Positions 475 to 19,073 of a stretch of DNA of 20,023 nt are shown here, piece after piece; within the stretch, counting starts at the first letter, position 1; every line of letters starts with the position of its first letter. Under the pieces are notes generated by a model. It was given only the letters and a program-made list of their open reading frames with translations. It did not search any database and had not been told where the DNA came from. The position numbers and the translations under genes are program-made. Location: IMG/VR virus record IMGVR_UViG_3300037245_000908, positions 1 to 20,023 of that record; one strand, written 5' to 3'. This DNA comes from a virus.

Positions 475-486
475 GTAACAAAAAAG

Positions 487-525: not shown

Positions 526-536
526 TTAGTTTGTGG

Positions 537-753: not shown

Positions 754-3700
754 TTACCTTCCAACTACATCGGCAAACTTTTGATATACATCTGCCTTCT
801 TACGTTTTTGATCCTGCAACTGTTTGGCCTCAGATTTACTTAACCCGAATTTATCTTGCTTTGCCTCCAGTGCTCGAATCTTTTTGTTGAGAGGACTGAG
901 TCTGGATCTGGCAAATCCCAGTCGAGACTTTGTTCGATTAAAGTTGTCGTACTTTCTCATATCCATACGGGCCTCAGTGATCATACGATTATCTCTAACC
1001 TGCTTAGCCTCATCCAAGTTTCTTTCCAGTTGTTGTATCTCCTGACTCTTGTCCCAGTAGAATGCTTCGTTGGGGTCTGTGTGTCGGACATCCCGTACAT
1101 CAACACCGAGTCCTCTACCAATAGATGCCAGCCAAGATGATTCCCCGGCCATAGCCTGGGCCACCTCACTCAGTGGTATTGGAAAACTCTGACGAACGTT
1201 ATACAGGGAAGCGGCAAACAACTGTGATGCACCAGCTCCCCATCCCTCTACATACTTGGGATCGTTATAGTCCTCGGCAGTTAACTGCCAGCTACCGTGC
1301 TGCCACATCTCTGCAACCGTACGGAAACGATCACCCTTCCAGTCTGTCCGAGTAAGACTTGATTCAGCCAAACGTGTTATGGGTGACAGCTTGTGCTTTG
1401 CCAGCGTGACCGGATCTGTTACCTTTAGAATATCCTTGAAGTGCCCAAGCAGGTTCATGTCTGTACGTTTGCCCTTAGGCACGGTACCACCGAACGTCTT
1501 GATGATAGGGGTGATGTCAACGGATGCCCACCGGCCCTTAGCAAAACCCTCCATAGTGGAGGCTTCACCAATCTGCTTTAGATATTCCTTACGATCATCC
1601 TCGTCCCCAAATAATGCCAGCACTGCAAACTGTGCAGCCAATACTGATATTGCACCCTTCCAAGCAATGCCCCACCAGAACTTACGGTAGACCTTCTGCA
1701 TTCCCTCAGGTCCAGGGTTATCTCCAATAGCTTTACCGATAGCCTTGTTGACAATGTTACCAGGTGCCATACCTGTCACTGTTCTCCAGTTTGATTCTGT
1801 CCAGTCAGGTGCAAGGAGAAGCATCTGGGCCATTCTCTGCAGATCCGGATTCCTACCCATACGTCCAAGGTGTAGTCCACCGTAGTCAGCATTGATCAGC
1901 CGGGCTACCAGTAAGGCCTCATGATTAACCTCTTCCTCCGTAAGGCCACGTTTCAGATCCTTTTCCTTCTTATTAATCTCACGTGTCAACTCAACTGCAG
2001 CTGACTGTGCCTTGAGACCAGCAAACAACTGTCCAAATAAACCGTTTGTCCACTGTCGTTTCCACCGTCGAGCACCCTCCCAACCGTGCAGTGCCATGTG
2101 GGCACCAGGTATAGTTTGCTTGTGCAGGTACTCTGAAATGGTGGAGTCCATCACTCCCATCTCTTCCCAGTCCTGAATCTTACCAAGTGTTAACCCCTGT
2201 CCTACAAGGAGATTAACGATTGGACCCAGGTAGTTATAGTTGGGGTTTTTAAATCCAGTCTGTTTGTCTATCTTTTTTAGTCCCTCCCGGTAAGCTTTGA
2301 ACGGTCTTGCTCTCAAAAGGCCCGTGCCTCTCACACCATACACGTATGATCGGAGTCCAGCCAGGTGGTGGAACATTGTTACAGACAGAATTGTACTCTT
2401 GAGCATTGAGTTGACCCTGCGAGTAGCCTTAAGTGCCGGCACATCCCAGAAGTCTGAGGCCCTCTTTCCAATCTTGTTCAGCAGTTTACCCATGTCAGCC
2501 CTGGCATATACAACCTTACCAGGTGCAGCAAACCCACGGGTGGTCAGCTTCACAAATCCATCAGGAGGATTCTGTGCCTTGTCTCTGACTACAAGCACAG
2601 AGCTTTCACCGGACGGACCAATTAAGGATCTCATGTAATCAACGAATCTACGATTAGCATACACATAGCCAATCTCAGATGCATAGGCCTGGAGGTTGGA
2701 CAGCACTCCCTCAGTCTTTAACTCCAGACCAAGTTCCCATCCATCAATAATACTTCCCAAGGACCGTTGCTTACCGGACGAGGGTGTTAACTTAAACCCT
2801 GTTGTGCCTGTACCGTCCCACGTGATGCCGGCATCCTTATACTTCTCGGGCATGACCCACACACGTTTGACGTAGTCCTCAATATGAGTATCAAGTATGT
2901 CGTGCTTCTGTGCAAAGTTAAAGAACTGATCATAGTGGACCCTGACGTTCTCGTCGGCCCAAGCTCTCTCAGCGGCCGACAGGTTCAACATCTTATCCAC
3001 GATCTTAAGCTTCTCAGTCTCTGCCACTGTCCTGCTTTTCTTAGCCATTAACTTCTTGTGGAACTGCTCAACCTTTGCCAGGTTTTCACCTGCTCCACTG
3101 TCAATATAAAGGTTCATAGCCTTAGCCGTTATCTCAGAGTTGGATGTGTGCAAGAATCTACCTGTGCCCACTACCTTTATCCGTGACTTACGACCACCAA
3201 ACATCTCAAGGAACTCCTGCTCAAGCTGAGCAAAGAGCCTGTTGATATTTAATTCAGCCTTATCCCTCCACACGTGGATCTTGTTGACGTGACTCTCACG
3301 TTCCCTGTGTGTTGAAAGGAATTGTACATCATCCTCTGCAGAGTTCAAGGCAGCCATACTATTCAGGCTGGCCTCAGCATCCTTGGAGAAACGAATTGCC
3401 CGAGTGTAGTTTCCGGAAAATCCTGTCAGGTTATCACGGACAAGATTAATCTTAACCTTATCATTCTTGTCACTGTACAACTGTATGGCCTGATCAGACA
3501 GTTTCATGTTTAGACTATCATCCATCTTCTCGAACCCAAATGTACCCTGATACCAGGTGGCCATCTCCTCACTGGATGCTGTGACCTCACGGCCACCGTT
3601 AACAATAGCATTCATCATACGAGCCGTGCTGTTGTTGTCCACTCCAGGGGATAGTACCCTTATGACACCGGCTTTGCTTACAGGATATTTACCTTTGACC

Positions 3701-6700
3701 TCTTTGCCCTTCTGAGCTATGAGTTTCTTTTCCAGGGGACTGATCGGTGCCAGGGGTATGTTCTCAATTCCCAGGAGATCAGACAGCTTACCCTCACTAA
3801 GGCCAGGTATCGCAGCCTGCAACCACGCCAGTGGTGTCTTGCCACCGTACATTGCAGACGGCCTGTTCAATCCGGATTGGTATGATGCAACCTCTGATAT
3901 ATTTTTACCAGTCTGTTTGGAATTTATGTTTACCCACAGTGCAGCCTGCATCTCACGAGGGGTCCATACCTCATCAGTCTTAGCAGACATCTGTGCTGCA
4001 AGACTAATCAGCTTCTCCCGTAGTGATGTGATCTGTGGTATAGAATACGTCTCATCGTCCTTGTTGGCTGTCGTGGCAGGATCTCCATAAAACAATCGAT
4101 ACATCCAAAGATCCCCAACTGTGGCATTAGCATCACCCAGGAGTGCCCGGGCAAACTCTGTTACCTTAAAATGACCAGACTCAAGATTAGCCAGCATTGC
4201 ATCCGGAGATGTCCACTTGGAGTCTATCCGTTTTTGTAACTTACCTGGGTACCGTGCACCTGGCTCATCTCTAACACCCATCAGGTAGGCATACGTGTTG
4301 ATTGCATATTGAACATTAATCTCAACGTCAGCCTGGGGGCTTGTGATTGCCAGCAACACACTAAACAACTGTGAGTCCTTACCAAAATGCTTACGGATCG
4401 TCTCCACGTGCTGTGAGTACCACTTCTTTAGGTGTGGTGCAGCCTTCTGAGTCTCTGCTGCCCACTCCAGGTATGTTTCGTCACTCTCCATAAACGTAGG
4501 AGCGTTTTTCCCAGCCAAGGATTTATGCTTGGGGCGACGTTTAGCCACTGCCTTATCCAGCATGATGCCAAACTTATCGGACCCCGTGAAGACGTTCTCA
4601 CGGGCTATCTCAAGCATGTTCATTATGTCCTTATCGTTAAGGATGAAGTCTGCCTTTACATCAGTGAACTTGGCCGGCAACCATCTCTTGATAAAGGACT
4701 TGAACCTGGTGATCAAACCTCTCTTGGTGACAGGCTTTAAGGTCTCTGCCCTTCGAGCTATCATCTCCTCAGCCAGCAATCTCCTCTCAGCCTTGGTGAA
4801 CTTCATAACCCATTTGCCCTTCTTGTCCTTACCAACAAAGATGTCGTGCAACTGAGCCATGGCAACAACAGCCTCCTGCTCTTTGACACTAAACAGGGTG
4901 TAGGACTGGTCAAGGAAACGGTTGAACAGGGCTTTGTTCTTACCAAAGATATTACGTAATCCCTGGTGTGCTACCTGCTCGTGCATCCAGACCTTTACAA
5001 AACGCTCCTTGGATGTAATGTTGTCAGCGTTAATAATTAATGTGCCATCACCGGTCCACACTGCCTCAGTATTAGCAGGCACAGCAAAACCAAGCATCAC
5101 TGCCATACTATCAGCATTTACAGCAATTTTAGTTTCCAGTGCGTTAACTGCCAGGGTGTCTAATTCCTCAGCCCAATTTGTAGCCATAAAGTGATCTACG
5201 TTTTCACCAAAGTCAAAGGATATATCATCCTTACTAAATCGTGCTATCTTCTCACCAAGAGGTATCCTGGTGTTGAGTATGTCAATCAACTCGTCGTGCT
5301 TGCTGGGCATTCTCAGAATCTTTGTCACGATCAGATCCGTCAAGGCATCCCACATAGTTTTGATGTAGGACTTCTTAGCTTTGAATCTGGGGCTGGCCGG
5401 TATTTTGTTCAGCCAGGCAGCAAACTCAGGGTGGGCCAGAGCATAGGTTACTATCTCTGTCACACTCTTATTGGATTGATCAATACCCTTTTTGATACGT
5501 GGATGCACATCTGGGTTAGTCATCTGCTCGGCAAGGAAGTCCTTACCTATGCCATCCCAAAAGGTTCGAAGTTCTGCAACCACTTCCCTCTGCTGTGCCT
5601 GAGGCATTTTTTCAATAGCCTTATGCACCAGGGCATGGATGTGCTCGTGGGTGACAGTCTCAAGAGCCTTCTTAATGCTATTTGTGAACTTGTCTATTAA
5701 TGGGAGGTTTATTATTGCAGCCTTCTGAGTCTGAATATACAGACCAAATGTACCACCAATACGAGACATGTTACCGGTAACAGAATTTATCTGCATGTCA
5801 CCTTCAAAACGTTTGACAGCGTCATCGATTGCTTTGGCATTCCCGTGCCTACGTATTACTTCTTGCAGTTTACCAAACTGTCCCTTATCCGTAACGAATA
5901 TGGTTTTAACACCATACTCCTTCGTGGTATCAAACAAAAACTTATACTTACCCAGCTTCATCTCTTTCTCAAGAGCATCCATCACCTCAAGGGTGCCAAG
6001 CTTTTTTTCACGAGGCATCTTGTTCAAGTTGGGAGCAGTAATATTTTTGTCCTGCAGCCTCTGCTCAAGAGCAGCCCCGAGGAAGTCCTCAGAGATTAGG
6101 ATATCCGTACCAACAAGCTTGGATGCCTCAGCTCTGTTTACATACTGTCCGGTATGAGTTACAAACCCATCAGCTTTAAACTCAGTCAACTCAGCCATTG
6201 TTGCATTGTTCACGTAGTTCTCAACTGCATCACTTTGCATCATAATTTTGAGGTGACTTGCACCCTCAATTACTTTGCCATTTGGTAAACGAAAAGCTGC
6301 AGCCCTAAATAATTTCTTGGCATCTGTGGCTACGTCAGCAGGTACCTGCATCTCACTGGTATCAAGAATTGATGCCTCACTTGGGAAAAATGGTATCGTG
6401 AACCTCTCCCCACCCAGTTCAGTATAGTCCTCATTAGGATCAGTGCTCTCTTTAATGGTAGACTTATCAACTGTGGTGACAGTGGTGCCCTTTATAAAAT
6501 GAGCCTGCTTTCCCTTTGCAAATATAAAGGAATCCTGGCCCAGTTCATCGGATAGCTTCTTTGCAGCTTTACGGCTCAAGGCAGGTATAATAAAAGGAAC
6601 TTCGATATCCTTGCCAAACTTCGACTTGCCTATCTTATATGGGATACCCAAAAGATCCAGTCTTAGCTTTAGCTTTCTCCGTGCTTTCACGTTTGCAGCA

Positions 6701-9700
6701 GGAGTGGCTGTTTTAGAGCCGGGGTTATCTGACGTTAAGATTGTCCACGTTGAGGATGAATCCTTGATACCTTTAACGACACCAAAGTCTTTTTTACTTC
6801 GAAATGTTTCCTTGATCCCACTGACCAGTACCCTAAAAAATGAGTCCTGCTTTAACTGTACCCCTGTCGATTTCTTTAGCTTAAGGGGTCTTCGAAGGGT
6901 CTCCTTAACCTCAGCTGCCAAGGTCTTAAAAACAGAGTCTTGTTTTAATTCAGGACCTACTGCCTTCGGTTCGTGAGCCTCGACTTCTTTCTTTTGCCGT
7001 TCAATAGCCGCCACTCGTGTAGCCTTATCTGCCTTAGCTTCTTCGAGTTCTGCTGTACGAGTCGGACCAGGAATCGGTTTACGGATCTCCTTAGCTTGAG
7101 TGACAACGACACCCTGTGCCTTCTTACGTTCAGCAGCAATCTTCGAAATACGTGTTCGTTCTTTCCGTTGCTTCTGGGCTTCCTCACCTTTCTTCCTCCG
7201 TGCGATTGTCTTGACGGCCGGCTTGGCCTCAGCCTTTTGAGTCTTGGCAGCAGCCTCTGCTTTTTGCTTTTGCTCTACCTGGGCATCAAAGGTAATCCTC
7301 TCACCCAACAACTGGACCTGATCATAATCAAGACGATCGTCTTGCTGTTGTTTGATCCACCTGGAGATAGCGTTGTCTCGTTCTATGACATCAGCACTAA
7401 CATTAGGATTGGTCTTATTCTCCTCAGCCACCAGTGTGGCCTGGACATCAAGGTTCACCAACTTCTTCATCGGTGTCTTAGAGAAGTAGTCAACGTGACC
7501 AGATGCCTGTCGAAACCTCATCTCTGATATAACGTTGTTGTACAACTTGGCAAGCTTAGGTTGGTTTTCACGAGTGGCTCTGTTGGTTGCAGATATTAAT
7601 TCAGTCTGCAGACCGTCAACTGTATCCAGGGAATCAATGTACTGTTGCCTCTGCACTTGCTGCTCGGCCTGGACCAGTTTGGTTTGGGATTGTACCCGTG
7701 TATCTGATTGTTCCTTTAACCTCCGGACCTCGTTCTGTACAGACTCAATCATGTCCGGATTAGGAAGCATCTTTTTATTCTTAGCTCGGGCATCAGCTGC
7801 CTCAAGTAATTTCTGATAGCTGCCTATGACGTTGCTTGTTTCCTGCTCCATCATCTGCGCCATCTGGAGACCACCCGGGGCATCCTTAGCTTCAACCATG
7901 TCATTATAGAATCCCACGAAGGAATCCAGCTTAGCCAAGGAGGTATCTATAAGCAGACGCTGTTTATCCATGGCCTTCTCACCGGCCAACTCACCAAGTA
8001 TTTGTTTCAACGAGTCATTACCTTGGTGCTGATTGACACGTTGTTTATCTGTAACTGTGAGATCGTCAGACACAGAAACCCCATCCGGTGTGGTGATATT
8101 GGACGGATCTGTCTCTACTCCCAGAAGTGTTTCCACACTGGGCACTGACTCAGCATCCTGTTTCACGTCAACCTGAGAGGCTGTGTCTTCAACCGCTACA
8201 GTGACTCCCGACTGGTCTGTGTGCACCTGTACATGCTCAGCACCCGAGGCTACTGCACTGGTTGATATATTTACAGCAGCACCTGGCATACCCATGACAG
8301 TCATGGCTGTGGCAGTCATCAAGGCAGTTTCCGAAACGTTCTCAAATATCCTTGACACAACTTCTTCAACGCTGGCAGCAGACATGTCCGTCTTGTCAAG
8401 TTCTGGTCTGATCTCTTTGGCCACGGTCTGGGCAATGTTAGCCCATATTTCTTGACTGGTCTCTACCGCTGTCTCCTGGCCTATGTTCTTTACATAACCA
8501 CCAGCAGCACGTTTGGTTGCACTCTTGGCAAACTCCTTAGTGATAGCTTTACGTAATAGCTCACTTACAAGTTTCTTTCCACCAGGTATCAACCTGAGTA
8601 TTGGACCCATACCAAAGACTTCCAAACTACTGGAACCGGTGTTCACAAAGTCTGCCATCTTACCGGCCTTATCACGTTCCATTCCAAGGGCTGTGGCCTC
8701 ACGGAACACAGCACCACCCTCTATCTCACCGATGTCAGAGGTGGAACCAAACATTCCAAATATAGCGGCACCAAGTTTAAATCCAAGAGTAGCTGTAATT
8801 GCTTCCTCACCAGGAATCAAAGCACCTATCGGTGTGGCATTCCCAGCAATAGCAAACAGTGCACCCGTGGCCACGCCACCGATGACTGCATTCTCTCCGT
8901 ACTGCTTTATGGAGTTTGCTATGAAGGGTGCAAACTGACCTACTGCTTTAGCAACATAGGGCTTACCCTCTAACTCCTCGGTCAATCCCTGCTGCTTCTT
9001 TTCAATCTCCTTAAGTCGGGTTAGTTCCTTAGAGGTGATCGTGTTCATACGATCCTTCCACCCCAACCGTCCGGACTCAATACTCATGGTACCCTGTTCC
9101 CAAGAAATGCTGGCTGCTTCAAGATTGTTTTTAACCACGGGAGACATGTTCTCAAAATCGTCAATCGTCTCTGTTCTAAACTGGCCACCACCTCCTATGC
9201 TTCTAAAGATGGTATCCCACAAGCTGGACGACTGATCCCTGGCCCACTGCCTTTGAGCATAGGTTGTTTCCCGGTGTGCCTGACCGAGTTGCATTTCTAA
9301 CTCACGATCATTATCAGGTACCTCGGACTCTACAGGTCCACCATAAGCAGACAGCACTCTGTCAACGTAGGCCGGCACATCATACTGAACACCTTGTTTG
9401 TTAGTGCCACGTTTGTTCTGCCAATCTTTTGCACTGCCACTATTCCACGTGGCGGCAATCTCCTGTGGGCTAAGACCTTCATCAATCCACTGATTGATCT
9501 TAAACTCCACGACAGCCTCCTCACTCTCGGGTGTCTGTTCAATAGAACCTCTACCCTGGTTATACTCTGAGGAGTACTGTTTCCAAGTTGCTGGCATAAA
9601 TTGAAATGCTCCTGTCTCTCCAGAAGTACCCTTGGCAGCGAAGTTTCCACCGGACTCTGTTTGTTTTATTGCCTGCATTAGTTTGGCTGAGTCAACAGCC

Positions 9701-9873
9701 TGTGAACTTACTGTGGTCGAGTCAATAGCTGGTGTACTCTCAGTGTCAAACACGTTGGCAAACATGTTGGACCTCCCACCAGTTGTAGGGGCATCAACCT
9801 TTCCCTCTTGCTCGGTTTTACTTTTCTCAAAGGAGTCAAATACTCCTGAGAATAAATCATTTCTTGATGCCAT
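754..9873 (-). CDS. Giant 3039-aa virion/ejection polyvalent protein: lytic transglycosylase, two zincin-like motifs, LPD38-like C-terminus
   Basis: This fills the place of T7 gp16 at the end of the internal-protein genes and is far larger (3039 against about 1300 residues). The ATG has an AGGAG 12 bases upstream. Residues 64-180 are a lytic transglycosylase domain: catalytic E73 in QTESGGN, then GETGAFQFMPATW. Residues 325-378 are Gly/Ala-rich and hydrophobic, perhaps membrane-inserting. Residues 560-970 are mostly charged helix, very Lys/Glu/Ala-rich after 860. A short repeat (LKQDS.F..L....KET.R) occurs twice near 972-1020. About 1185-1250 is a module ending in GFVTHTGQYVNRAEA. HEHIH at 1409-1413, with E1473 in SVTEIVTYAL, is a gluzincin-like site; HEQVAHQGLR at 1631-1640, with E1702/E1703, is a second. 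A TSPQADVEIN motif sits at 1844-1853. The C-terminal third has LLLAPDWTESNW near 2690, a membrane helix near 2730-2753 and a coiled-coil end, resembling LPD38-type polyvalent proteins. Expected role: packaged in the head and ejected to open the cell wall and conduct DNA. Confidence 0.85.
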   Translation of the reverse strand: MASRNDLFSGVFDSFEKSKTEQEGKVDAPTTGGRSNMFANVFDTESTPAIDSTTVSSQAVDSAKLMQAIKQTESGGNFAAKGTSGETGAFQFMPATWKQYSSEYNQGRGSIEQTPESEEAVVEFKINQWIDEGLSPQEIAATWNSGSAKDWQNKRGTNKQGVQYDVPAYVDRVLSAYGGPVESEVPDNDRELEMQLGQAHRETTYAQRQWARDQSSSLWDTIFRSIGGGGQFRTETIDDFENMSPVVKNNLEAASISWEQGTMSIESGRLGWKDRMNTITSKELTRLKEIEKKQQGLTEELEGKPYVAKAVGQFAPFIANSIKQYGENAVIGGVATGALFAIAGNATPIGALIPGEEAITATLGFKLGAAIFGMFGSTSDIGEIEGGAVFREATALGMERDKAGKMADFVNTGSSSLEVFGMGPILRLIPGGKKLVSELLRKAITKEFAKSATKRAAGGYVKNIGQETAVETSQEIWANIAQTVAKEIRPELDKTDMSAASVEEVVSRIFENVSETALMTATAMTVMGMPGAAVNISTSAVASGAEHVQVHTDQSGVTVAVEDTASQVDVKQDAESVPSVETLLGVETDPSNITTPDGVSVSDDLTVTDKQRVNQHQGNDSLKQILGELAGEKAMDKQRLLIDTSLAKLDSFVGFYNDMVEAKDAPGGLQMAQMMEQETSNVIGSYQKLLEAADARAKNKKMLPNPDMIESVQNEVRRLKEQSDTRVQSQTKLVQAEQQVQRQQYIDSLDTVDGLQTELISATNRATRENQPKLAKLYNNVISEMRFRQASGHVDYFSKTPMKKLVNLDVQATLVAEENKTNPNVSADVIERDNAISRWIKQQQDDRLDYDQVQLLGERITFDAQVEQKQKAEAAAKTQKAEAKPAVKTIARRKKGEEAQKQRKERTRISKIAAERKKAQGVVVTQAKEIRKPIPGPTRTAELEEAKADKATRVAAIERQKKEVEAHEPKAVGPELKQDSVFKTLAAEVKETLRRPLKLKKSTGVQLKQDSFFRVLVSGIKETFRSKKDFGVVKGIKDSSSTWTILTSDNPGSKTATPAANVKARRKLKLRLDLLGIPYKIGKSKFGKDIEVPFIIPALSRKAAKKLSDELGQDSFIFAKGKQAHFIKGTTVTTVDKSTIKESTDPNEDYTELGGERFTIPFFPSEASILDTSEMQVPADVATDAKKLFRAAAFRLPNGKVIEGASHLKIMMQSDAVENYVNNATMAELTEFKADGFVTHTGQYVNRAEASKLVGTDILISEDFLGAALEQRLQDKNITAPNLNKMPREKKLGTLEVMDALEKEMKLGKYKFLFDTTKEYGVKTIFVTDKGQFGKLQEVIRRHGNAKAIDDAVKRFEGDMQINSVTGNMSRIGGTFGLYIQTQKAAIINLPLIDKFTNSIKKALETVTHEHIHALVHKAIEKMPQAQQREVVAELRTFWDGIGKDFLAEQMTNPDVHPRIKKGIDQSNKSVTEIVTYALAHPEFAAWLNKIPASPRFKAKKSYIKTMWDALTDLIVTKILRMPSKHDELIDILNTRIPLGEKIARFSKDDISFDFGENVDHFMATNWAEELDTLAVNALETKIAVNADSMAVMLGFAVPANTEAVWTGDGTLIINADNITSKERFVKVWMHEQVAHQGLRNIFGKNKALFNRFLDQSYTLFSVKEQEAVVAMAQLHDIFVGKDKKGKWVMKFTKAERRLLAEEMIARRAETLKPVTKRGLITRFKSFIKRWLPAKFTDVKADFILNDKDIMNMLEIARENVFTGSDKFGIMLDKAVAKRRPKHKSLAGKNAPTFMESDETYLEWAAETQKAAPHLKKWYSQHVETIRKHFGKDSQLFSVLLAITSPQADVEINVQYAINTYAYLMGVRDEPGARYPGKLQKRIDSKWTSPDAMLANLESGHFKVTEFARALLGDANATVGDLWMYRLFYGDPATTANKDDETYSIPQITSLREKLISLAAQMSAKTDEVWTPREMQAALWVNINSKQTGKNISEVASYQSGLNRPSAMYGGKTPLAWLQAAIPGLSEGKLSDLLGIENIPLAPISPLEKKLIAQKGKEVKGKYPVSKAGVIRVLSPGVDNNSTARMMNAIVNGGREVTASSEEMATWYQGTFGFEKMDDSLNMKLSDQAIQLYSDKNDKVKINLVRDNLTGFSGNYTRAIRFSKDAEASLNSMAALNSAEDDVQFLSTHRERESHVNKIHVWRDKAELNINRLFAQLEQEFLEMFGGRKSRIKVVGTGRFLHTSNSEITAKAMNLYIDSGAGENLAKVEQFHKKLMAKKSRTVAETEKLKIVDKMLNLSAAERAWADENVRVHYDQFFNFAQKHDILDTHIEDYVKRVWVMPEKYKDAGITWDGTGTTGFKLTPSSGKQRSLGSIIDGWELGLELKTEGVLSNLQAYASEIGYVYANRRFVDYMRSLIGPSGESSVLVVRDKAQNPPDGFVKLTTRGFAAPGKVVYARADMGKLLNKIGKRASDFWDVPALKATRRVNSMLKSTILSVTMFHHLAGLRSYVYGVRGTGLLRARPFKAYREGLKKIDKQTGFKNPNYNYLGPIVNLLVGQGLTLGKIQDWEEMGVMDSTISEYLHKQTIPGAHMALHGWEGARRWKRQWTNGLFGQLFAGLKAQSAAVELTREINKKEKDLKRGLTEEEVNHEALLVARLINADYGGLHLGRMGRNPDLQRMAQMLLLAPDWTESNWRTVTGMAPGNIVNKAIGKAIGDNPGPEGMQKVYRKFWWGIAWKGAISVLAAQFAVLALFGDEDDRKEYLKQIGEASTMEGFAKGRWASVDITPIIKTFGGTVPKGKRTDMNLLGHFKDILKVTDPVTLAKHKLSPITRLAESSLTRTDWKGDRFRTVAEMWQHGSWQLTAEDYNDPKYVEGWGAGASQLFAASLYNVRQSFPIPLSEVAQAMAGESSWLASIGRGLGVDVRDVRHTDPNEAFYWDKSQEIQQLERNLDEAKQVRDNRMITEARMDMRKYDNFNRTKSRLGFARSRLSPLNKKIRALEAKQDKFGLSKSEAKQLQDQKRKKADVYQKFADVVGR

Positions 9874-9904: not shown

Positions 9905-10984
9905 TTAGTCTACGAAAAATCCAAGTACACTGTCGTACATCGATTTAAACCAGCCGTCCGACAGGGCTGCACTTTCATCGGCCCTCTCTTCATACCCTCT
10001 CTCGAACTCGCCGTACATTCTCTCCATGAACTCACGGGGCAATCCCTCTGTAACACCAGACTCGATGAAATCAGCTCTGGTTGTTGGGTCTTTTGGATCG
10101 AGTGCCTGCTTTACACCGGTTAGGAATTTATCACGTATCTTTGCGTTGTCTGAGATAGCAGCAATCTTCTTTGCTGTGTCAGGACTAACTGCCACACCAA
10201 GTTCGGCTGCCAGTTTACCTGCAAACTGGTTAAACCCCTGCTCTCTAATCTTGTCAAGGTTTGAACCCTTCTTACCAGCCTCAGTACGTTTAGCCAGGGC
10301 AGCATCCTGCTTGGCTTTCTCAGCCTGCTGTTTAGCTTTCTCAGCCTGCTGCTTCTTTAACTCAAGGTCGGCCTTACCAATTATACTGTCTGACATAGCA
10401 TTAGATCTACGTATAGCCTCCTCAGTGTCGATGTCTTGAAGGGCATAAGCAAAGTATAGCTCAGGGCTTGAGATTCCTGCTTTGAACTTCTCGTAGTCAC
10501 CCTGTGTCTCGAAGATAATCTCATTGGTAGGTGCCCGGGATTGGATCTCTTTTGGTTCCCCGGTTCTGTCATCCATTTGGATCTCACCAGTTATTTTATC
10601 TTTGTCAAGAAAGGATATGTCCATGACTCCCCATGCCTTTAATTCTGCTGCACGACTGTCATTAAATCTGTATATCCGTTTATCAGGAAAGAAGTTAGTG
10701 ATAGCCTCGGCCTGCAGGGTTAAGTTATTCCCAGCACCCGCCAAGTGTTTTGCTAACTTGGCGTGGTTAATCTTGGCATTACCAAGTATCTTCTGCTGCT
10801 CAGCTGCTTGTGCCCTGAGTTCAGCATCCTTTTCCTGTATGGATAACTGACGCTCCTTGAAGGCATCCTCTTTATCCAGGCGTTCATCAGCCCTCTCTTC
10901 TGCTGCTTGTTGTTGCAAACCGGCACCCAGTGTTGTCAAACCACTGTGTACACCGGCAGCTATAGCTCGTCCGAATTTTCCCAT
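9905..10984 (-). CDS. Internal virion/ejection protein candidate, helical and Ala/Lys/Gln-rich
   Basis: 359 residues, with a GGGAG ribosome site ten bases before the ATG, two bases after the preceding gene and 31 bases before the giant gene. I do not recognise a named family. It begins with a Gly-rich segment (MGKFGRAIAAGVHSGLTTLG) followed at 22-85 by a strongly charged, glutamine-rich helix, a pattern often seen at the start of phage ejection proteins. Residues 207-240 form a second coiled-coil-like helix containing the seven-residue repeat QQAEKAK twice. The C-terminal third is a compact helical domain ending FKSMYDSVLGFFVD. No catalytic motif is seen. Its place between the gp14-like and gp16-like genes matches that of T7 gp15, so the natural reading is a core or ejection protein that works with the giant protein. 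This is inferred from position and composition. Confidence 0.65.
   Translation of the reverse strand: MGKFGRAIAAGVHSGLTTLGAGLQQQAAEERADERLDKEDAFKERQLSIQEKDAELRAQAAEQQKILGNAKINHAKLAKHLAGAGNNLTLQAEAITNFFPDKRIYRFNDSRAAELKAWGVMDISFLDKDKITGEIQMDDRTGEPKEIQSRAPTNEIIFETQGDYEKFKAGISSPELYFAYALQDIDTEEAIRRSNAMSDSIIGKADLELKKQQAEKAKQQAEKAKQDAALAKRTEAGKKGSNLDKIREQGFNQFAGKLAAELGVAVSPDTAKKIAAISDNAKIRDKFLTGVKQALDPKDPTTRADFIESGVTEGLPREFMERMYGEFERGYEERADESAALSDGWFKSMYDSVLGFFVD
10314..10351 (-). repeat. 21-bp tandem duplication encoding the QQAEKAK heptad
   Basis: A 17-base string (10314-10330) recurs exactly 21 bases later (10335-10351) inside the 359-aa gene. It adds one heptad to a coiled coil without shifting the frame, which looks like a recent in-frame duplication. 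Confidence 0.7.
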
Positions 10985-10986
10985 AA

Positions 10987-12243
10987 TTATGCCACTCCCT
11001 GTGAGTCAACTCCCTCACCAGTTCCACCACCAGCTATTCCACCTGTGCCAGAGCCTTCACTACCAGCAACCCCAACACTTCCAGCAGTACCAACACCTGG
11101 ACCACCACCAAAACTGTCAACACTATTATTTTTTGCATTTAGCTGAGCCTGCAGCTTTTTAAAGTCTGCATTCATAGCGTCCCGCCTTGCTTTCATCTCG
11201 TTATCAAAGGACGTTACACTCTGTCCGGATGCCGTGACAACTTCCCCAGTCTCCTTGTCAAAGAACTTGGGAACAGCAATACCCTTCTGGGTAAAATCTG
11301 CTGACTTTGTTTCGGTATCCGTGCCGAGGACTCTCTCTCCACCAGCTTGGGTTAGAGTAGCCCCTACCTCGCCGGCCGAACTTAGTGCTGTACCTTCCTG
11401 CACACCACCCACCTGGGGGGTTAGCATAGCAGCGGTCTGGGTCAATTGCTGTTGGGATGTCAATAGACTTGCTTGTGATGTTTGAACACCAGCAGCCACC
11501 TCAACACCAGCGGCAGCACCCGCAAGCTGTTCCTTACGTGCTGCCTCTTGTGCAACACCAGTGGCCCCAGCCTTGGCTCCTGCTTTGGATATTGCCAGCT
11601 GCCGTAGGCCGGCCTCTGATACATCCATACCCTTGGCACCCATCTGTCGTTTAAGCTCAGCACCGGCCTCGCCAAATCTTTGTTCAACACCAGACACTGC
11701 CTCACCAACACGTTGATCGGCTGTGGGTATCTTATCTATCTGATCCGAGAAGGATTGTGCAAACTTACTAACGTCAGCACCGGACGCACCTATCTGTTGC
11801 CTATAGGCTTCTTTTAAAAAGTCACCACCCATAAGATCCTTTAGGCTGGACTTCATTGCAGCCCCAGCGTTTTCTACGATGCCGGCTATGAGTACCTGGT
11901 TGGCCTCGATCAACGATGCTTGAAACGGCTGGAAGGTGTTCTCAAAAAAGTCTCTGTCGGCACCACTCCATTCGTTTAGTTGCTCCGTCAAGTCCTTCAT
12001 GACCTGACCGGCCTCAAGGTCAAAGACAAAGTTCATGTCCTGAATAAGCTGCCCAGATTTAGTCTCTGGTAATACCTCTGGCTTATACCCCTCGGGGGCA
12101 TCGTCGGCCGCCAGAGAAGAAGCTAACCCAGCAGCAGCAGAAATGCCAGCTGCTATTACTAAGGGCCAAATACAATTTACTGTGGGCTTGAGCATCTCGT
12201 TACGCTTAGGCTCAAAACCAAAATTCATATCATCTAAAAACAT
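10987..12243 (-). CDS. Internal virion protein candidate with N-terminal membrane segment and Gly-rich tail
   Basis: 418 residues; AAGGAG eight bases before the ATG fixes the start. A hydrophobic segment at about 24-46 (around IWPLVIAAGISAAAGLASS) is the only membrane-like stretch, as in T7 gp14, whose position this gene occupies. Residues 60-260 are helical and alanine-rich. Within them, around 190-240, is an Arg-containing stretch followed by regularly spaced Ala and a closing AARK; this resembles ejection proteins of other podoviruses, where a R.(M/L)G..P/D segment precedes an Ala-rich helix. Residues 378-418 are a disordered-looking tail of Gly, Ser, Thr and Val. No enzyme motif is seen. 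Likely role: a minor head protein ejected into the cell envelope, forming the outer part of the DNA conduit. The family assignment is by form and gene order, not by a strong signature. Confidence 0.65.
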   Translation of the reverse strand: MFLDDMNFGFEPKRNEMLKPTVNCIWPLVIAAGISAAAGLASSLAADDAPEGYKPEVLPETKSGQLIQDMNFVFDLEAGQVMKDLTEQLNEWSGADRDFFENTFQPFQASLIEANQVLIAGIVENAGAAMKSSLKDLMGGDFLKEAYRQQIGASGADVSKFAQSFSDQIDKIPTADQRVGEAVSGVEQRFGEAGAELKRQMGAKGMDVSEAGLRQLAISKAGAKAGATGVAQEAARKEQLAGAAAGVEVAAGVQTSQASLLTSQQQLTQTAAMLTPQVGGVQEGTALSSAGEVGATLTQAGGERVLGTDTETKSADFTQKGIAVPKFFDKETGEVVTASGQSVTSFDNEMKARRDAMNADFKKLQAQLNAKNNSVDSFGGGPGVGTAGSVGVAGSEGSGTGGIAGGGTGEGVDSQGVA

Positions 12244-12418: not shown

Positions 12419-14635
12419 TTACACAATCTCCTCTGTTGAAGTAGCAAGTATAACTCGTTTCACGGGTATCATTCCGTCAACACTCCACTCCCACTTCTTG
12501 TGCTTAAAGCCGCTGGGCAATTTAAACATCTGACTGTCGGACACTTGCTTCACCCACTTCAAGGTACCACCTACATAAATCTTAAAATTAATGTAACTTT
12601 GTACACCAAGATTTCGTAGGCTATACAACGTGTCTCCATTAATGTCCTGCTCGTTTAGCATGTTGGCATTAAACGCACCACGTAGTGGTAGCTCCCAGGC
12701 AGTGGCATTTAAATCCTCAAGTTTACTCTGATCAGATACACTTCCCAGAACACTATCATAAAATTCTGTATCAAGTATAACTTGGGCAACTTTAAAGTTG
12801 ACTGGTTTTGTCAGTATATACTGGGGAGATTTATAGTTAAACATCCGATACTCCGTGGTGTCAGCATCCCACATGGATATGTTCAACACCGTCGGGGCCT
12901 CTATATTTGAAAAGTATATTGTGTGAAATGTGCCGTCGGCAATGGTGACGTATCCAGCATAGTGATAGTCAACACCTGTGGTAACAGTACCATTAAGCAT
13001 ATCCAGAATTATATATCCCTCATGATCAGCAGATTTATAAAATCCATAGTAGGCTTTATTGTACCAGGTGCTGTGCATTGTCTCCACTTCAAAATCAACC
13101 CAGTCCTCAGGCTTAAACATATCAGTAGTGATGTTTACTACACCACCAGCTGTGACGTGCTGGAATCCTTCCTTTGAAGGAAAGATGACTCCGTCATGTG
13201 ATTCAACTACGGCACGTTGGGATAAGCACGGCTGGAAAGATAACTTAGTCTTATACAAGGACGTAGGATGTGGCCCAGAGAACGTGTAGATATGCCCATC
13301 AGTTGCAACCACAATGGTAGATCCGTACACTCCAATTCCAACGATCTGTTGATCAATCGGTACCTGGTAGTCTTCTGGCCAAGCCCACGGTGAAAAGGGT
13401 TCACTAAAGTAAAGGACGTTATCCTTGGAGGCTACAAAGAATCCACCAGGATGCCCACGTAAATTTGTTAGGTCGTCTGGTGCTCTGTCATAAAAGATAG
13501 ACGTACAGACACTGCCAAGGTTTCCATCCACACCATCATCATCAGTATCCGTAAATGTATAGTCTACCCATGCTGTACTACCAGGTCCAGTTTCATCAAT
13601 GGCCACCTCTGCCACGAGCAGGAATGCAGTATTACCGTCTCCGTCTGTTGATGTTCTGTAAAATCTGAGAGCTGGGGCGTTACCATCTACCACTGTCTTA
13701 AGATGTTCATCAGTGTCTGAGGGTTCCACGAATCCGTCAAGCACAAGACTACTGGTGCCATCCCAATCAGGAACACCGTCTCCGTCCACTGTCTCAGCTA
13801 TCACCGAGGGAGGACCCTCCTCACCATATCTACTCACGTGGGTGAAGAAGTATGCCCGGTACTTTGTACTGCCGGTGGAGTACCCTATAGTCAAGGCACT
13901 ATTGACCGGTGAACCCGGGAAATAAAAGTCTGTCGTAAAGTCAAATGCATCCCCACCCTGAATATCATTTACAAATGCTTTATATTTTCCAGGGTCAATA
14001 CCAATAGTCGTGCCACCAAGGGTGCCACTACCATCAACAGAGATACGCCCACCCGACTCGGTTAAGACTATAGCATTACCGGCAGCCCCGGCCGTGACAG
14101 CCGTAACTGTAACCGTGCCATCTTCGTTATCCGTGAAGGTGACATCTGCATCTGGAGTCAAAGCTGCTAATGCCGCTGCAGCTAATTCTTTTGTGGTGGT
14201 CGTGTTGTCACCAACTGAGGTGTCTCCACCAATACCATCCTCGTCAATGTCAAACTCAAATACCTCCGAGCCAATAGTTATTGTCTCACCATCTGTCATG
14301 CCGTCAATAAATGTTATCAATCCCTGTGCTTGTACACCGGCATCAGCACCTGTCAGGTACATTCGTTCAAACGTGTCTTCCACCGTGGGGGACCTAACCC
14401 AGTGCACTATAAGATTATAGTATACCCAGCTTTTGGAACCACCCTCCAAATACTGAAACAGTGCTTTGTAGGATGCCTCCGCCAAAGGGGTGACAACAGT
14501 TGACCGTCTATAAGCTTTTATGTCACCAGAGGCAGACTTCAAATCCGAGGCGATCTGTGCCATATTAGATGGTAACTTATCCTTTGCAATCTTAGGCTGA
14601 ATGCCCTTGAACTCGGTGACCAGTATCTTAGCCAT
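12419..14635 (-). CDS. Tail nozzle / stabilisation protein (T7 gp12-like) with inserted beta domain
   Basis: 738 residues. The start (MAKILVTEFKGIQPKIAKDK) and following residues match the usual beginning of podovirus nozzle proteins, where a short beta segment is followed by a line on the Leu-Pro and Ala residues that start the subunit contact. Residues 258-277 (RAYFFTHVSRYGEEGPPS) are the family's fibronectin-like strand, and 434-495, with TIVVATDGHIYTFSG and QPCLSQRAVV, are the beta-propeller signature. Nozzle proteins form the hexameric lower tail through which DNA leaves. Residues about 104-212 interrupt this plan with a separate domain (ITIGSEVFEFDIDEDG ... GAAGNAIVLTE), a beta fold known as an add-on in many phage structural proteins. 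Several Asp-rich loops, including DIDEDG (129-134) and DTDDDG (362-367), could bind calcium. The ATG overlaps the upstream gene by eight bases, suggesting coupled translation. Confidence 0.88.
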   Translation of the reverse strand: MAKILVTEFKGIQPKIAKDKLPSNMAQIASDLKSASGDIKAYRRSTVVTPLAEASYKALFQYLEGGSKSWVYYNLIVHWVRSPTVEDTFERMYLTGADAGVQAQGLITFIDGMTDGETITIGSEVFEFDIDEDGIGGDTSVGDNTTTTKELAAAALAALTPDADVTFTDNEDGTVTVTAVTAGAAGNAIVLTESGGRISVDGSGTLGGTTIGIDPGKYKAFVNDIQGGDAFDFTTDFYFPGSPVNSALTIGYSTGSTKYRAYFFTHVSRYGEEGPPSVIAETVDGDGVPDWDGTSSLVLDGFVEPSDTDEHLKTVVDGNAPALRFYRTSTDGDGNTAFLLVAEVAIDETGPGSTAWVDYTFTDTDDDGVDGNLGSVCTSIFYDRAPDDLTNLRGHPGGFFVASKDNVLYFSEPFSPWAWPEDYQVPIDQQIVGIGVYGSTIVVATDGHIYTFSGPHPTSLYKTKLSFQPCLSQRAVVESHDGVIFPSKEGFQHVTAGGVVNITTDMFKPEDWVDFEVETMHSTWYNKAYYGFYKSADHEGYIILDMLNGTVTTGVDYHYAGYVTIADGTFHTIYFSNIEAPTVLNISMWDADTTEYRMFNYKSPQYILTKPVNFKVAQVILDTEFYDSVLGSVSDQSKLEDLNATAWELPLRGAFNANMLNEQDINGDTLYSLRNLGVQSYINFKIYVGGTLKWVKQVSDSQMFKLPSGFKHKKWEWSVDGMIPVKRVILATSTEEIV

Positions 14636-14970: not shown

Positions 14971-16005
14971 TTAGTCTCGTTCAATTAAAAGTCCGGCCGC
15001 TGAATAGGGCCTGTCTGTACTCGGTGCCCTGGCACCACCTGTATTGGCAGTACCTGAGGAACCAGTGTTACTCGTTCCGTCGGCTCCTGTGGCACCCGTT
15101 CCACCGGCTCCTGTGGCAGCTGTACCACCTAAGTTAGTGTCACCGGGATCAACTGGGCTTGTCCAGAGATCTTCGTTGGGATCAAGATATGGATCAGCAG
15201 AAGTGACTTGGTGAACCAAACCGATCTGTTTCAGACCACCGTTTATAAATGTGTGTGTGGTGCCATTTTGATTGTACGAATAACGACCAGCCCACGACCA
15301 ACGGTGGGTATGTGCTCCCATAGTGTGAACGTGACTGGGACCAGTATGTGTATGGTTGGGGCCGGTATGCGTGTGACTCGGTCCGGTGTGAACGTGACTG
15401 GGACCGGTGTGTGTATGGTTTGTGGCAACCCATGATCCTACCAGATTTCCACCCTCTACATCATAGGCTTCTGATCCACCAACGATTGCCAGAAGACAAT
15501 CGGCCGGGCCACTGTGGGCTGACCAACCAACAGGTATGTCAGCAGCAGCATTATAAATGTACATTACCAGACCAGTGGGTGCATAGAGCACCTGCTCGTC
15601 TGCAGTATCTTTTGACTCAAGTGCTGCAACAGCAATGTCATTTGATGTCTCGTAGTCCACCAAATCAGATGTGTTGGTGGCTATGTCGTCACGAAACTCC
15701 ACAAGAATAATCTTGGGAAATCGAAGCTCACACTTCTCTGCTGTCGAGAAAGCAATAGCACTGGTGTCATCCTGTGCCCTGATAATTACGGTAAATACGT
15801 CTGTGCCACCGGTGTGCTCTGTGACCTTTACAATTTCACGAGCACCTGTATCCTTGATTAATGTGGCATAAAAGTAAGTGCCCCCACTCACCGAGGCAGC
15901 AGGAAATAGAGCACCATCCCCTGCCTCCAAAGTGATGGCAGTATCACTGTCTGTTATACCAGCAGCAAAAGTACCCTCGGCATTGTTTGAAAATTGTACA
16001 CCCAT
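14971..16005 (-). CDS. Collar-type tail fibre with His-x-His repeat
   Basis: 344 residues. TAGGAG lies nine bases before the ATG, inside the end of the preceding gene. Residues 1-110 look like a beta-rich attachment domain. Around 140-192 are features of the phage tail collar family: APTGLVMYIYN, then PVGW, then a glycine-rich turn. Residues 197-234 hold six H-x-H pairs spaced exactly seven residues apart (period HxHTGPS), as in T4 short-tail-fibre-type proteins where such histidines hold iron ions along the trimer axis. Residues 295-323 are a Gly/Thr/Ala repeat. The C-terminus RPYSAAGLLIERD is the usual end of collar fibres. The protein should trimerise and form a host-binding fibre or spike. 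The metal is not shown by the sequence. Confidence 0.85.
   Translation of the reverse strand: MGVQFSNNAEGTFAAGITDSDTAITLEAGDGALFPAASVSGGTYFYATLIKDTGAREIVKVTEHTGGTDVFTVIIRAQDDTSAIAFSTAEKCELRFPKIILVEFRDDIATNTSDLVDYETSNDIAVAALESKDTADEQVLYAPTGLVMYIYNAAADIPVGWSAHSGPADCLLAIVGGSEAYDVEGGNLVGSWVATNHTHTGPSHVHTGPSHTHTGPNHTHTGPSHVHTMGAHTHRWSWAGRYSYNQNGTTHTFINGGLKQIGLVHQVTSADPYLDPNEDLWTSPVDPGDTNLGGTAATGAGGTGATGADGTSNTGSSGTANTGGARAPSTDRPYSAAGLLIERD
15080..15118 (-). repeat. 24-bp repeat encoding Gly/Thr/Ala fibre tip segment
   Basis: The string CGGCTCCTGTGGCA occurs at 15081-15094 and again at 15105-15118, a 24-base period that encodes the GTGATGAD-type repeat of the fibre. It forms part of a longer Gly/Thr/Ser/Ala-rich stretch (residues 295-323) before the collar end motif. 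Confidence 0.6.
15304..15417 (-). repeat. Six-copy 21-bp repeat encoding HxHTGPS units
   Basis: The codons from His197 to His234 of the fibre repeat every 21 bases with small changes: Thr or Val between the histidines, Ser or Asn after Pro, and MGA replacing TGPS-type residues before the last pair. The array can gain or lose units in frame. Confidence 0.85.
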
Positions 16006-16007
16006 TA

Positions 16008-16709
16008 TTATATACTCCTAACTGTATCAGATCCCACGACTATAAAGTCCTGGGGTATCACCCGGCCGGGGTATTTCCCGGTGCCGGTTAGTGTTGTCTT
16101 CCTGGCCTCTCGAACTCCTCTCTTAAATTCCAAGGCAAATCCTGCAGCCACACTGGGATTAAACCAAGTGGCCTGGGGTATCGATAACACTTTGGCCAAG
16201 GCACCCGCTTGAACTATCTCGTGCCACTTCTCAAAGATAAATTCATCGACCTCTACTTGGCCACGTTTATACGTGACGACTGCTTGAGTGGTAACATCCT
16301 CGTCAATGTCAGCCTTTGGTGTGGGCCAAATTCTTATCTTATTCACATCGTCCGTAAGCCAGAACCTGGTCGGCCGACCGGACTCTGTATCTCTCCAGTT
16401 TGGGAGTCTGCCATCCATCTCTCGTTCAGTTGTCCGTATCAATGGGTCCTTGTCAGCAATCTTAATCTCGTCTATAGCAATAGTGCGATACCTATCCTGA
16501 GGGTATTTCAAAGTGTACGTGTGAACCTCTTCCTCAAACTGAATAGATGTTGGTGTCTTCTTTAGCAGCAATGCTTTGTTGCACAGATCGATGGCTGAGT
16601 TAATCAAATGAACCCTCAGCATGATGGGAGGTGCCCCATTACAGTACTGCATCATTTCGGGTAGAAATTCATTTAGCAGTGTGTAACCTGCTGATGCTTG
16701 TGCTGCCAT
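16008..16709 (-). CDS. Head-tail adaptor, gp11/gp4-like (T7 gp11 / P22 gp4 type)
   Basis: 233 residues with AAAGGA ten bases before the ATG. The order of motifs is that of short-tailed phage adaptors: an N-terminal helix with FLPEMMQYCNGAPP, then a helix with LRVHLINSAIDLCNKALL, a strand-rich middle with RPTRFWLTDD and KIRIWPTPK, and a C-terminal helix pair with WHEIVQAGALAKVLSIP followed by ATWFNPSVAAGFALEFKRGV. This final pattern (GAL..L..P...W.NP..A......F..GV) is a good signature of the family. The protein should form the ring that joins the portal to the nozzle and close the head after packaging. It follows the other adaptor gene by six bases. Confidence in the role is high; the closest named relative cannot be fixed without a search. 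Confidence 0.85.
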   Translation of the reverse strand: MAAQASAGYTLLNEFLPEMMQYCNGAPPIMLRVHLINSAIDLCNKALLLKKTPTSIQFEEEVHTYTLKYPQDRYRTIAIDEIKIADKDPLIRTTEREMDGRLPNWRDTESGRPTRFWLTDDVNKIRIWPTPKADIDEDVTTQAVVTYKRGQVEVDEFIFEKWHEIVQAGALAKVLSIPQATWFNPSVAAGFALEFKRGVREARKTTLTGTGKYPGRVIPQDFIVVGSDTVRSI

Positions 16710-16715
16710 ATTTTA

Positions 16716-17366
16716 TTATTCCTTTGATTCAGGGCCTGCAGCCTGTGAGGTTGCTATCTCGACCTGGAGTAAGTTAAAAAAGTTTTGCATATACATTGTG
16801 GCCTTCTGAAATTCAACGCCCTCATCATCAGTGACAAAAGCTTTGTACAACATATACTGCACGATAGGCTCAAAGAATACATCATTAATACCGAGGTCAT
16901 TGCCAGTGGCTGTCACTGCTGTGGGCAACTGGGAGACTTGCATCTCTACGTACACGTCCACATCGGAACCTACAGGAGGTGTCACATAAAATATTCTCGG
17001 ATTCTCTTTGTCATAGGAGAAGTTGTCAATCTCTGTGTCTCCAGATGCGGCCGGCCACAAGAGGTTTGAGTAGTTCAAATGCTTACGGTCCACTGGGGTA
17101 ATTATCTTACCTGCCGTTAATCCATCATCACCCATGTTTCGTGTGATGTCCAACATCCTCAATGCTGTAGAGGGCAGGGATTGCAAGACACCAGCCGCTA
17201 ACTGTATATTATCTGTCTGTGCCCCGGCATCAGGTCGAACCAGGATCAAGGCTCGAACAGAAGCATTCAAGTGCTTGATCCAAGTTGTTTCCCATATTCG
17301 GTCATAGCCAGTATCACCATACAGGCCAGCAGCATCTACTATATAGTCATTTGCTGTGAATGCCAT
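16716..17366 (-). CDS. DUF6682-like head-tail adaptor/virion protein
   Basis: 216 residues, starting at an ATG with AAGGAAA about ten bases upstream. The motifs are those of a widespread phage family (DUF6682 as I recall it): WIKHLNASVRALILVRPDA, then IQLAAGVLQSLPS, then LRMLDITRNMG. Such genes lie beside adaptor genes in podoviruses. The C-terminal half (VYVEMQVSQLP, then VFFEPIVQYMLYKAF) repeats the general plan of adaptors, strand followed by helix pair, so the protein may be a second ring component at the head-tail joint. The gene is six bases before the gp11-like gene and six bases after the 181-aa gene. Role by family and context; no biochemical motif is visible. Confidence 0.8.
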   Translation of the reverse strand: MAFTANDYIVDAAGLYGDTGYDRIWETTWIKHLNASVRALILVRPDAGAQTDNIQLAAGVLQSLPSTALRMLDITRNMGDDGLTAGKIITPVDRKHLNYSNLLWPAASGDTEIDNFSYDKENPRIFYVTPPVGSDVDVYVEMQVSQLPTAVTATGNDLGINDVFFEPIVQYMLYKAFVTDDEGVEFQKATMYMQNFFNLLQVEIATSQAAGPESKE

Positions 17367-18014: not shown

Positions 18015-19073
18015 TTACGACAGATCGGATACAGCAACTTCCAGTCGAACCATCCAAAAGTCGTTCAGGATGATTGTTGCAGAATAGCCTTTCCAACCAA
18101 CGTGTCCACGCTGAGCCAATGGATCGGAATCACTTGCCTTCGGATTCACTACCATCGGGGTCATAGCATTAGCACCCTTGAAGGCCACGATACCATAAGC
18201 ATCACGGGCCAGGAACAGCATCGGGTACACATCAGCCTGTCCACCTGTCTCAAGGACATTGGTTCCACCGGAGTCACCACCACCCAAGAAGGGTTCGATG
18301 ATTGTGGTTGCCAAGTAACGTACGTCCTCAATCTTGCCAATCTCACCAGCCCATGGGGTCATGGTTCCGTATTTCTCAGCCGGTACGAAAGAACTGATAG
18401 CACGGAGATCAGGCTCCAGGTCGGGGTGAACGATACAAACAAATGCAGGGGCAATAGCTTCTGTCCCGTAAGCCGGTGTACTTTTCACAACGGATGTGAT
18501 CGGTTTGCCAAGCTGACGTTTCAGAAAACGTGTAACCTTACGTTGGTCATTCAGGGTAAACACTTTGTCAGTGGCCGAACGACTGGCATCACCCTGTGCA
18601 TAGAAGACGTTGGTACCAGCCTTCAATACGTTATATCGGGTTTTCTCAATCAGAACTGCAGCTTGCTCACCAAGAATATCAACGGCTTCTCTCATGATAG
18701 GATCTTCATGGGTGTCCATGATAACGTCAGTGATGACGGTACGATCACCGTACTGCACCAGTGTGGCACTGTAGTCGGCACTCTCAATCAGAGTAGCATC
18801 AGGAGTGACACCTTCTGTCAAGGTCTTGTTGGCCGGGTTAAAGTTGGTACCCTTGAAATATTCGTGGGGGTTAAAGTCACTTCCAAATGTCGAGGTAAAT
18901 GTACTGTCAAGAAAATACCGTCGGAACTGAATGGTCTTGGTAGACCTGGTCGGCAACGGTTTGGCCTGTCCAAACTTCTCAAGGATCAGCCAAGGCATAC
19001 CACGTTTCAGAAGATCACGAACCACGAAAGCTGCCGTACGGGGGGATATATCACCATATGTTAATGTACTCAT
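18015..19073 (-). CDS. Major capsid protein, N4-gp56 family type
   Basis: 352 residues; AGGAG lies 12 bases before the ATG. Sequence hallmarks of the N4-gp56 major capsid family are visible: an N-terminal helix with LLKRGMPWLILEKFGQ, followed by LPTRSTKTIQFRRY, then TLTEGVTPDA and the strand VQYGDRTVITDVI, and a long helix with ILGEQAAVLIEKTRYNVL; later parts have VCIVHPDLEPDLRAI and FLARDAYGIVAFKG, and the C-terminus ends in ILNDFWMVRLEVAVSDL. The length fits an HK97-fold subunit that assembles the icosahedral shell. It lies 36 bases after the scaffold-like gene and is followed by the stem-loop above. No delta-domain cleavage site is obvious, in agreement with a separate scaffold gene. Confidence 0.92.
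   Translation of the reverse strand: MSTLTYGDISPRTAAFVVRDLLKRGMPWLILEKFGQAKPLPTRSTKTIQFRRYFLDSTFTSTFGSDFNPHEYFKGTNFNPANKTLTEGVTPDATLIESADYSATLVQYGDRTVITDVIMDTHEDPIMREAVDILGEQAAVLIEKTRYNVLKAGTNVFYAQGDASRSATDKVFTLNDQRKVTRFLKRQLGKPITSVVKSTPAYGTEAIAPAFVCIVHPDLEPDLRAISSFVPAEKYGTMTPWAGEIGKIEDVRYLATTIIEPFLGGGDSGGTNVLETGGQADVYPMLFLARDAYGIVAFKGANAMTPMVVNPKASDSDPLAQRGHVGWKGYSATIILNDFWMVRLEVAVSDLS

Follow-up and report, generated by a model that had tools for sequence, protein, structure and literature searches.

A gene at the end of the late operon in a 20,023-base virus record (the window, which covers only part of the genome) encodes a protein of 3,039 aa, the giant. It is likely a polyvalent protein that the virion carries and injects, from a podovirus whose coat is of the N4 type and whose late genes resemble those of Bcep22. 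By analogy with counterparts in other phages, it would very probably travel inside the particle and enter the bacterium together with the DNA. The best reading is of a chassis that is injected, may or may not bear a wall-opening head, offers a slot for cargo between two peptidases and keeps a conserved body. The strongest new evidence on the giant is mosaicism: comparison with its relatives shows that the predicted wall opener and the putative cargo can be exchanged as modules while the chassis that bears them is conserved.

Gene Structure and Genomic Context

The gene is a single uninterrupted ORF with an ATG start preceded by AGGAG, while the plus-strand reading of 754–9873 contains many stops. 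The earlier note had described this ORF and its length correctly but without saying that it lies on the minus strand. Three other virus records hold relatives that are complete or almost so and 45–50% identical to the window protein (L002, 3,132 aa; L021, 3,012 aa; and L022, which ends at the contig edge and has 3,012 aa or more), and a fourth (L026) holds an N-terminal piece of a relative. In an alignment of the four long proteins, frame and domain order are retained over about 3,000 codons, and one frame kept over that length at 45–50% identity excludes a chance ORF. A tblastn search with nearly the whole giant against 50,697 phage records gave one match only, phage zth2-2, and a scan of bacterial genomes (prophages) found no relatives.

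In transcription order, the operon encodes a scaffold-like protein, an N4-gp56 coat protein, a 181-aa protein, two SU10-type adaptors, a tail fibre, a 738-aa 'internal virion protein' (of a family present in 156 phage records), two proteins of 418 and 359 aa without family, and the giant as the last large gene (Table 1). The order matches that of Bcep22-like podoviruses (BcepIL02, Parlo); the window's coat protein is of the N4-gp56 type. A transglycosylase fused to a polyvalent body within a late virion operon, as proposed previously, is supported by this gene order and by the domains described below. The comparison with T7 gp16 made at that time is not, as the coat, adaptors and gene order are N4/Bcep22-like instead.

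The match to N4 in coat and operon position raises the question of whether the giant is a disguised N4-type virion RNA polymerase; N4 gp50, too, is a zincin-bearing giant encoded among late genes (PMC5512222). N4-type polymerases are divergent and could hide, but no Pfam RNA_pol match was seen in the giant, and an RNA polymerase family search, which had no positive control, found none in the contigs of the three relatives or in zth2-2. The giant carries an SLT domain, whereas none is described for gp50, and such an identity is highly improbable.

Just downstream of the giant gene (window 537–746, minus strand) lies a gene for a 69-aa protein with a coiled coil and one membrane-type helix, holin/XhlA-like by eye and without a Pfam match. 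On the strand opposite the giant gene, the stretch 379–530 (plus) contains a 31-aa membrane-type peptide, MELIALINASDPMTTLLAGLLIGFIFGVLIG, followed at about 490–530 by a GC-rich hairpin and T-run, which was noticed by eye, is absent from the scan and could end transcription.

Table 1. Features of the giant protein gene and of its neighbours in the window.
Feature	Position	Strand	Evidence
Giant virion-associated polyvalent protein gene (putative), 3,039 aa	754..9873	minus	In-frame homologs L002, L021, L022
Residues 1–52, conserved N-terminus, candidate capsid-targeting signal	9718..9873	minus	Alignment, module identities, DarB analogy
Residues 63–161, SLT lytic transglycosylase, catalytic E73	9391..9687	minus	Pfam PF01464/PF06737; RpfC structures
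Residues 301–575, Gly/Ala-rich hydrophobic region	8149..8973	minus	blastp/HMM, composition
Residues 1046–1114, DUF3293	6532..6738	minus	Pfam E = 1e-6; also in L002, L021, L022
Residues 1381–1535, zincin-like metallopeptidase site 1, HEHIH 1409	5269..5733	minus	Invariance 4/4; weak SprT-like match
Cargo slot between peptidase sites, about residues 1546–1551	5221..5238	minus	Comparison of four relatives
Residues 1557–1770, zincin-like metallopeptidase site 2, HEQVAH 1631	4564..5205	minus	HMM/hhalign; fold match
Residues 1808–1986, DUF7178	3916..4452	minus	Pfam, hhalign
Residues 2016–3039, highly conserved C-terminal body	757..3828	minus	Alignment, module identities
359-aa protein directly upstream of giant, internal-virion type by position, no family	9905..10984	minus	
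418-aa Ala/Gly-rich protein, internal-virion type by position, no family	10987..12243	minus	
738-aa 'internal virion protein'/head-closure family of Bcep22-like phages	12419..14635	minus	phrog_511 E = 2e-87
Tail fibre protein	14971..16005	minus	phrog_8469 E = 5e-19
Head-tail adaptor-like protein	16008..16709	minus	SU10_adaptor E = 3e-8, phrog_437
SU10-type adaptor protein	16716..17366	minus	SU10_adaptor E = 5e-20
Major capsid protein, N4-gp56 family	18015..19073	minus	TIGR04387 E = 2e-84
Scaffold-like protein, acidic coiled coil	19110..20003	minus	phrog_479 E = 5e-9

The N-Terminal Region

The N-terminus carries a doubled LF..xFD..E-type motif, with module identities of 59–67%. In P1 DarB, the first 30 residues (N30 signal) suffice for head targeting (PMC9024508). 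The N-terminus of the giant is retained in the relative without an SLT domain, making it a candidate for a DarB-like job; its conservation and this analogy suggest a head/capsid-targeting signal.

The lytic transglycosylase domain with E73 reported in the earlier note is well founded. Pfam SLT (PF01464, E = 4e-6, 26.7 bits against a curated cut-off of 21.3) and Transglycosylas (PF06737, residues 66–106, E = 3e-6) both score above their curated cut-offs, E73 (the family's catalytic Glu in its ES motif), GETGAFQFM (GAFQFM corresponding to the family's G-x-QF/MQ) and AATWNSG (AxWNxG) are present, GETGAFQFMPATW lies where it had been placed, and the slice matches RpfC structures by sequence (E = 6e-7). 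Further along, the Gly/Ala-rich region evolves fast within the close family, yet is common to phage zth2-2 and, weakly, to Ruegeria phage 45A6; it is possibly a membrane-associating part.

Peptidase Sites and DUF Modules

Both predicted zincin-type motifs are present, and they are invariant in the four full-length family members. Site 1 combines HEHIH with a candidate third ligand (E1473), also invariant in all four, and shows a weak SprT-like match (E = 0.008, below the cut-off) and a model pLDDT under 50. At site 2, HEQVAH (the HEXXXH form) is followed by an equally invariant candidate third ligand, E1702/E1703. This site is related to the peptidases of giants from Bcep22-like, Vibrio and Bacteroides phages (HMM E = 6e-10; hhalign probability 95.8, E = 7e-9), its homologs being the zincins of the BcepIL02, D96a, BKO1-TP3 and BS-TP4 giants. 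Its low-confidence model has the helix-strand-helix order of a zincin, with selecase (Z 5.3) and jannalysin (Z 5.0) as the best matches; these mini-metallopeptidases are followed by anthrax lethal factor and by aminopeptidases, all with modest Z. Site 2 thus shows the motif, the invariant downstream Glu, the fold order and the homology to known polyvalent zincins that are expected of this class.

The peptidases might act in head assembly, with the giant as a prohead-maturation factor that processes the scaffold or its own chain and of which part stays in the virion. No separate prohead protease was recognised within the 20-kb window, although the window spans only part of the genome. To our knowledge, zincins are not a known class of prohead protease, which weakens this reading. 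P1 DdrB undergoes cleavage ahead of packaging, and polyvalent proteins include assembly peptidases, whereas the N4 vRNAP, which has a comparable domain, enters the particle uncleaved; the HEXXXH zincin form has also been described for polyvalent proteins (PMC5512222). A role in maturation appears quite unlikely.

The domain previously called 'TSPQ'-type proved to be Pfam DUF7178 (PF23802; 31.7 bits against a cut-off of 27, E = 1.8e-7, and 36.4 bits for the slice), and it aligns with other DUF7178 proteins by hhalign (probability 89.9, E = 1.7e-6). Relatives of one solo DUF7178 protein occur in 124 phage records, and some solo proteins have been named glycosylase by their depositors. Profile comparison (hhalign) with the HhH-GPD glycosylases Nth/MutY gave under 1%, a PDB sequence search returned nothing credible, and the DUF7178 model has a weak fold match to the phage glycinyltransferase PUGT (Z 3.9, rmsd 7.0). 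K1903 and D1921 show a K-18-D spacing like that of endonuclease III, which hinted at an HhH-GPD glycosylase, but the profile comparison did not bear this out. The domain also occurs within proteins that are giant or head-encoded, in zth2-2, LS06 and CRP-738. In Roseobacter phage CRP-738 (L043 4732–7239), it is part of an 835-aa protein whose gene sits between the portal and coat genes, a head context. Any roles of DUF3293 and DUF7178 within the giant are inferred.

The C-Terminal Body and Structure Models

The C-terminal body has a hydrophobic helix (2736–2754) and charged helices at its end. The LPD38-like C-terminus suggested in the earlier note was not borne out: Pfam LPD38 (PF18857) returned no hit up to E = 10 for the window or for its relatives (BcepIL02 and Vibrio D96a were positive), and profile-profile comparison (hhalign) was not significant. 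Only a weak similarity was detected in a column-shuffle test (Z about 2.9; 1 of 60 shuffles). By eye, ordered LPD38-like motifs follow the hydrophobic helix (an acidic loop, FGDEDDR; a short strand; and P..RLAE.....DWKG), and the helix/loop/strand order resembles that of BcepIL02 and D96a, but this is not significant.

AlphaFold models of residues 1140–2080 and 2080–3039, built from four-row alignments, had mean pLDDT values of 45 and 50. The moderately confident parts were zincin 2, parts of DUF7178 and about 2080–2410. The models yielded a modest fold match for zincin 2; being poor, they give no fold support to peptidase 1 or to most of the C-terminal ~1,000 residues, and their low confidence leaves fold searches silent on most of the chain. 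Matches among viral structures included 'large polyvalent protein' entries with TM-scores < 0.2, which were given no weight.

Module Exchange among Relatives

The relatives differ in the modules that they carry. In L022, the SLT domain is missing (78 of 126 columns are gapped), with the N-terminus and the regions after the SLT kept, and no SLT was found elsewhere in its 17-kb contig. Other virus contigs contain SLT modules 43–45% identical to that of the giant, placed N- or C-terminally in proteins that are unrelated to it apart from this module. The cargo slot is empty in the window protein and in L021, holds ART-PolyVal (an ADP-ribosyltransferase of polyvalent type, E = 8e-17) in L022, and is filled in L002 by an insert of ~130 aa, acetyltransferase-like by eye and without a Pfam match. 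L021 and L022 are 94–95% identical from residue ~2171 on, 73% in DUF7178 and 20–22% at 179–575, and this unevenness suggests that recombination has occurred within the gene. In the L002 phage, a further gene (L025 2068–3312) codes for a putative metallopeptidase (DUF2201) with a VWA-like domain, and a PolA-type polymerase and an RNA ligase are encoded elsewhere.

These comparisons bear on whether the giant is an enlarged ejection protein of the T7 gp16 type, in which the SLT and a membrane/DNA-translocation channel are functional and the zincin and DUF domains are non-catalytic leftovers. T7 gp16 is likewise an internal virion protein with an N-terminal transglycosylase, which helps entry through cross-linked peptidoglycan, and the two smaller virion-type genes upstream of the giant recall gp14–gp15–gp16 (PMC8954989). 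However, T7 gp16 has 1,318 aa, no zincins or DUFs and an unrelated head type. Neither Pfam nor PHROG matched gp16-type proteins in the giant beyond the SLT, the head and adaptor genes are not T7-type (the coat being N4-gp56), the HEXXH/HEXXXH residues are invariant in four diverged relatives, and the SLT is dispensable in L022, so that this reading is improbable. That ejection proteins have no domain besides the transglycosylase, as stated earlier, is true of T7 gp16 but not of podoviruses in general.

Proposed Mode of Action

The preferred reading remains that of an injected polyvalent protein. The giant would be produced late, alongside the proteins of head and tail, as the gene order supports, and may be taken up into the head via its conserved N-terminal ~50 residues. 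It would leave ahead of or with the DNA, and the transglycosylase, an enzyme by family and motifs, would cut a small hole in the peptidoglycan, as suggested by T7 gp16 and the Bcep22-like phages. The remainder would reach the cytoplasm, where one or both zincins, whose peptidase type is supported, might cut the chain or a host target. Cleavage could then release DUF3293, DUF7178 and, where a relative carries it, the ADP-ribosyltransferase that sits between the peptidases. The idea of injection, put forward before, gains support by analogy from the Bcep22-like giants in the same position (with SLT and related zincin) and from JC1 virions. That of defence-related modules found no counterpart in the giant itself, in which no anti-defence enzyme was identified; the clear effector is the ART-PolyVal of L022 instead.

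In a variant of the last step, the giant is a host-targeting effector whose injected peptidases cut host proteins and not the chain. Iyer and colleagues list this option for such domains (PMC5512222), and the ART cargo of L022 is of effector type. Release is favoured over host targeting because the two peptidase sites flank the cargo slot, and the variant is possible but doubtful. A more ambitious and rather unlikely version of the release scheme is a programmable chassis: its packaging signal would be fixed, its wall-opening head optional, and two self-cutting zincins would enclose a cargo bay and free interchangeable effectors from it (none, an ADP-ribosyltransferase or another) once inside the host, while DUF7178 would act on DNA during the first minutes of infection.

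Comparison with Known Systems

Polyvalent proteins were described as a class in 2017 (Iyer, Burroughs, Anand, de Souza and Aravind; PMC5512222). Like the giant, they join unrelated enzyme domains in one late-encoded chain, with zincins (including the HEXXXH form) as hub domains and lysozyme/transglycosylase domains; the ART of that description is matched in a relative of the giant. The giant joins domains of several unrelated predicted activities (SLT, two zincin sites, DUF3293 and DUF7178), lies among late virion genes and shares domains with other giants: zincin 2 with those of BcepIL02, Vibrio and Bacteroides phages, DUF7178 with those of zth2-2 and LS06, and ART-PolyVal through L022. The 2017 description already covers lysozyme/transglycosylase, metallopeptidases (zincins) and LPDs in late-gene giants, so the machine is not of a new kind, and it proposes that zincins process polyvalent chains either ahead of injection or once it has taken place. 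Neither DUF7178 nor DUF3293 is among the domains named in the sections consulted.

The giant of zth2-2, a phage of the deep-sea Lentisphaerae strain zth2, is 29% identical to the window giant over residues 238–536 and also has DUF7178 and an HEXXH site (HETAH). Unlike the window giant, it carries LPD22 and ART-PolyVal, and no SLT was found in it. Its gene (L024 12257–16471 and L023 1–5083; OL791268) is split by the point at which the circular record, which carries no annotation, begins, and the halves appear one frame apart at the join, with a 39-residue overlap. The LS06 giant combines a methylase, a weak ART and DUF7178. In Pseudomonas phage Itty13 (NC_070969.1; L028 2–12337, minus), three annotated 'hypothetical' plus-strand genes (gp01–03) lie opposite a frame that stays open for 4,112 codons or more, begins SLT-like (MPLFEQSAVKYNVPVNVLLALGDQESRFNP) and has no annotation; the record probably misses its giant protein.

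The closest counterparts in gene order are the Bcep22-like giants (BcepIL02 gp70, JC1 gp69, CSP3 orf43 and Parlo gp81), each the last late gene. They share with the window giant an N-terminal SLT, a related zincin and a length of several thousand residues, and the same internal virion protein family is encoded ahead of them. Typically they join SLT, helicase, methylase, peptidase and LPD38 in ~4,500–4,700 aa; the SLT-headed DarB-like giants in this position measure 4,667 aa in BcepIL02 and 3,764 aa in Parlo (PMC6606913), Atu_ph08 encodes one of 4,877 aa in the same gene module, and the CSP3 gene has 13,994 bp (PMC10269572). JC1 gp69 was detected in virions purified with CsCl (PMC9144972). Polyvalent proteins that are headed by an SLT and borne in virions are therefore already known. 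By Pfam, the window giant lacks the SNF2/helicase and DNA methylase domains found in BcepIL02 and Parlo, as well as a clear LPD38 or LPD39, and has DUF3293, a second zincin and DUF7178 instead; sequence comparison links it to these giants only at the zincin.

What is new is the domain set, which was not found described, and the unusually clear evidence, from alignment, of swapped modules. The giant adds the combination of SLT, DUF3293, two zincins and DUF7178 to the injected giants of podoviruses, and ties DUF7178, a widespread solo phage protein, to virion-borne delivery. Peptidase cargo release has been a proposal without proof since 2017 (PMC5512222), and the relatives, by marking where modules enter and leave, supply the comparison needed to test it.
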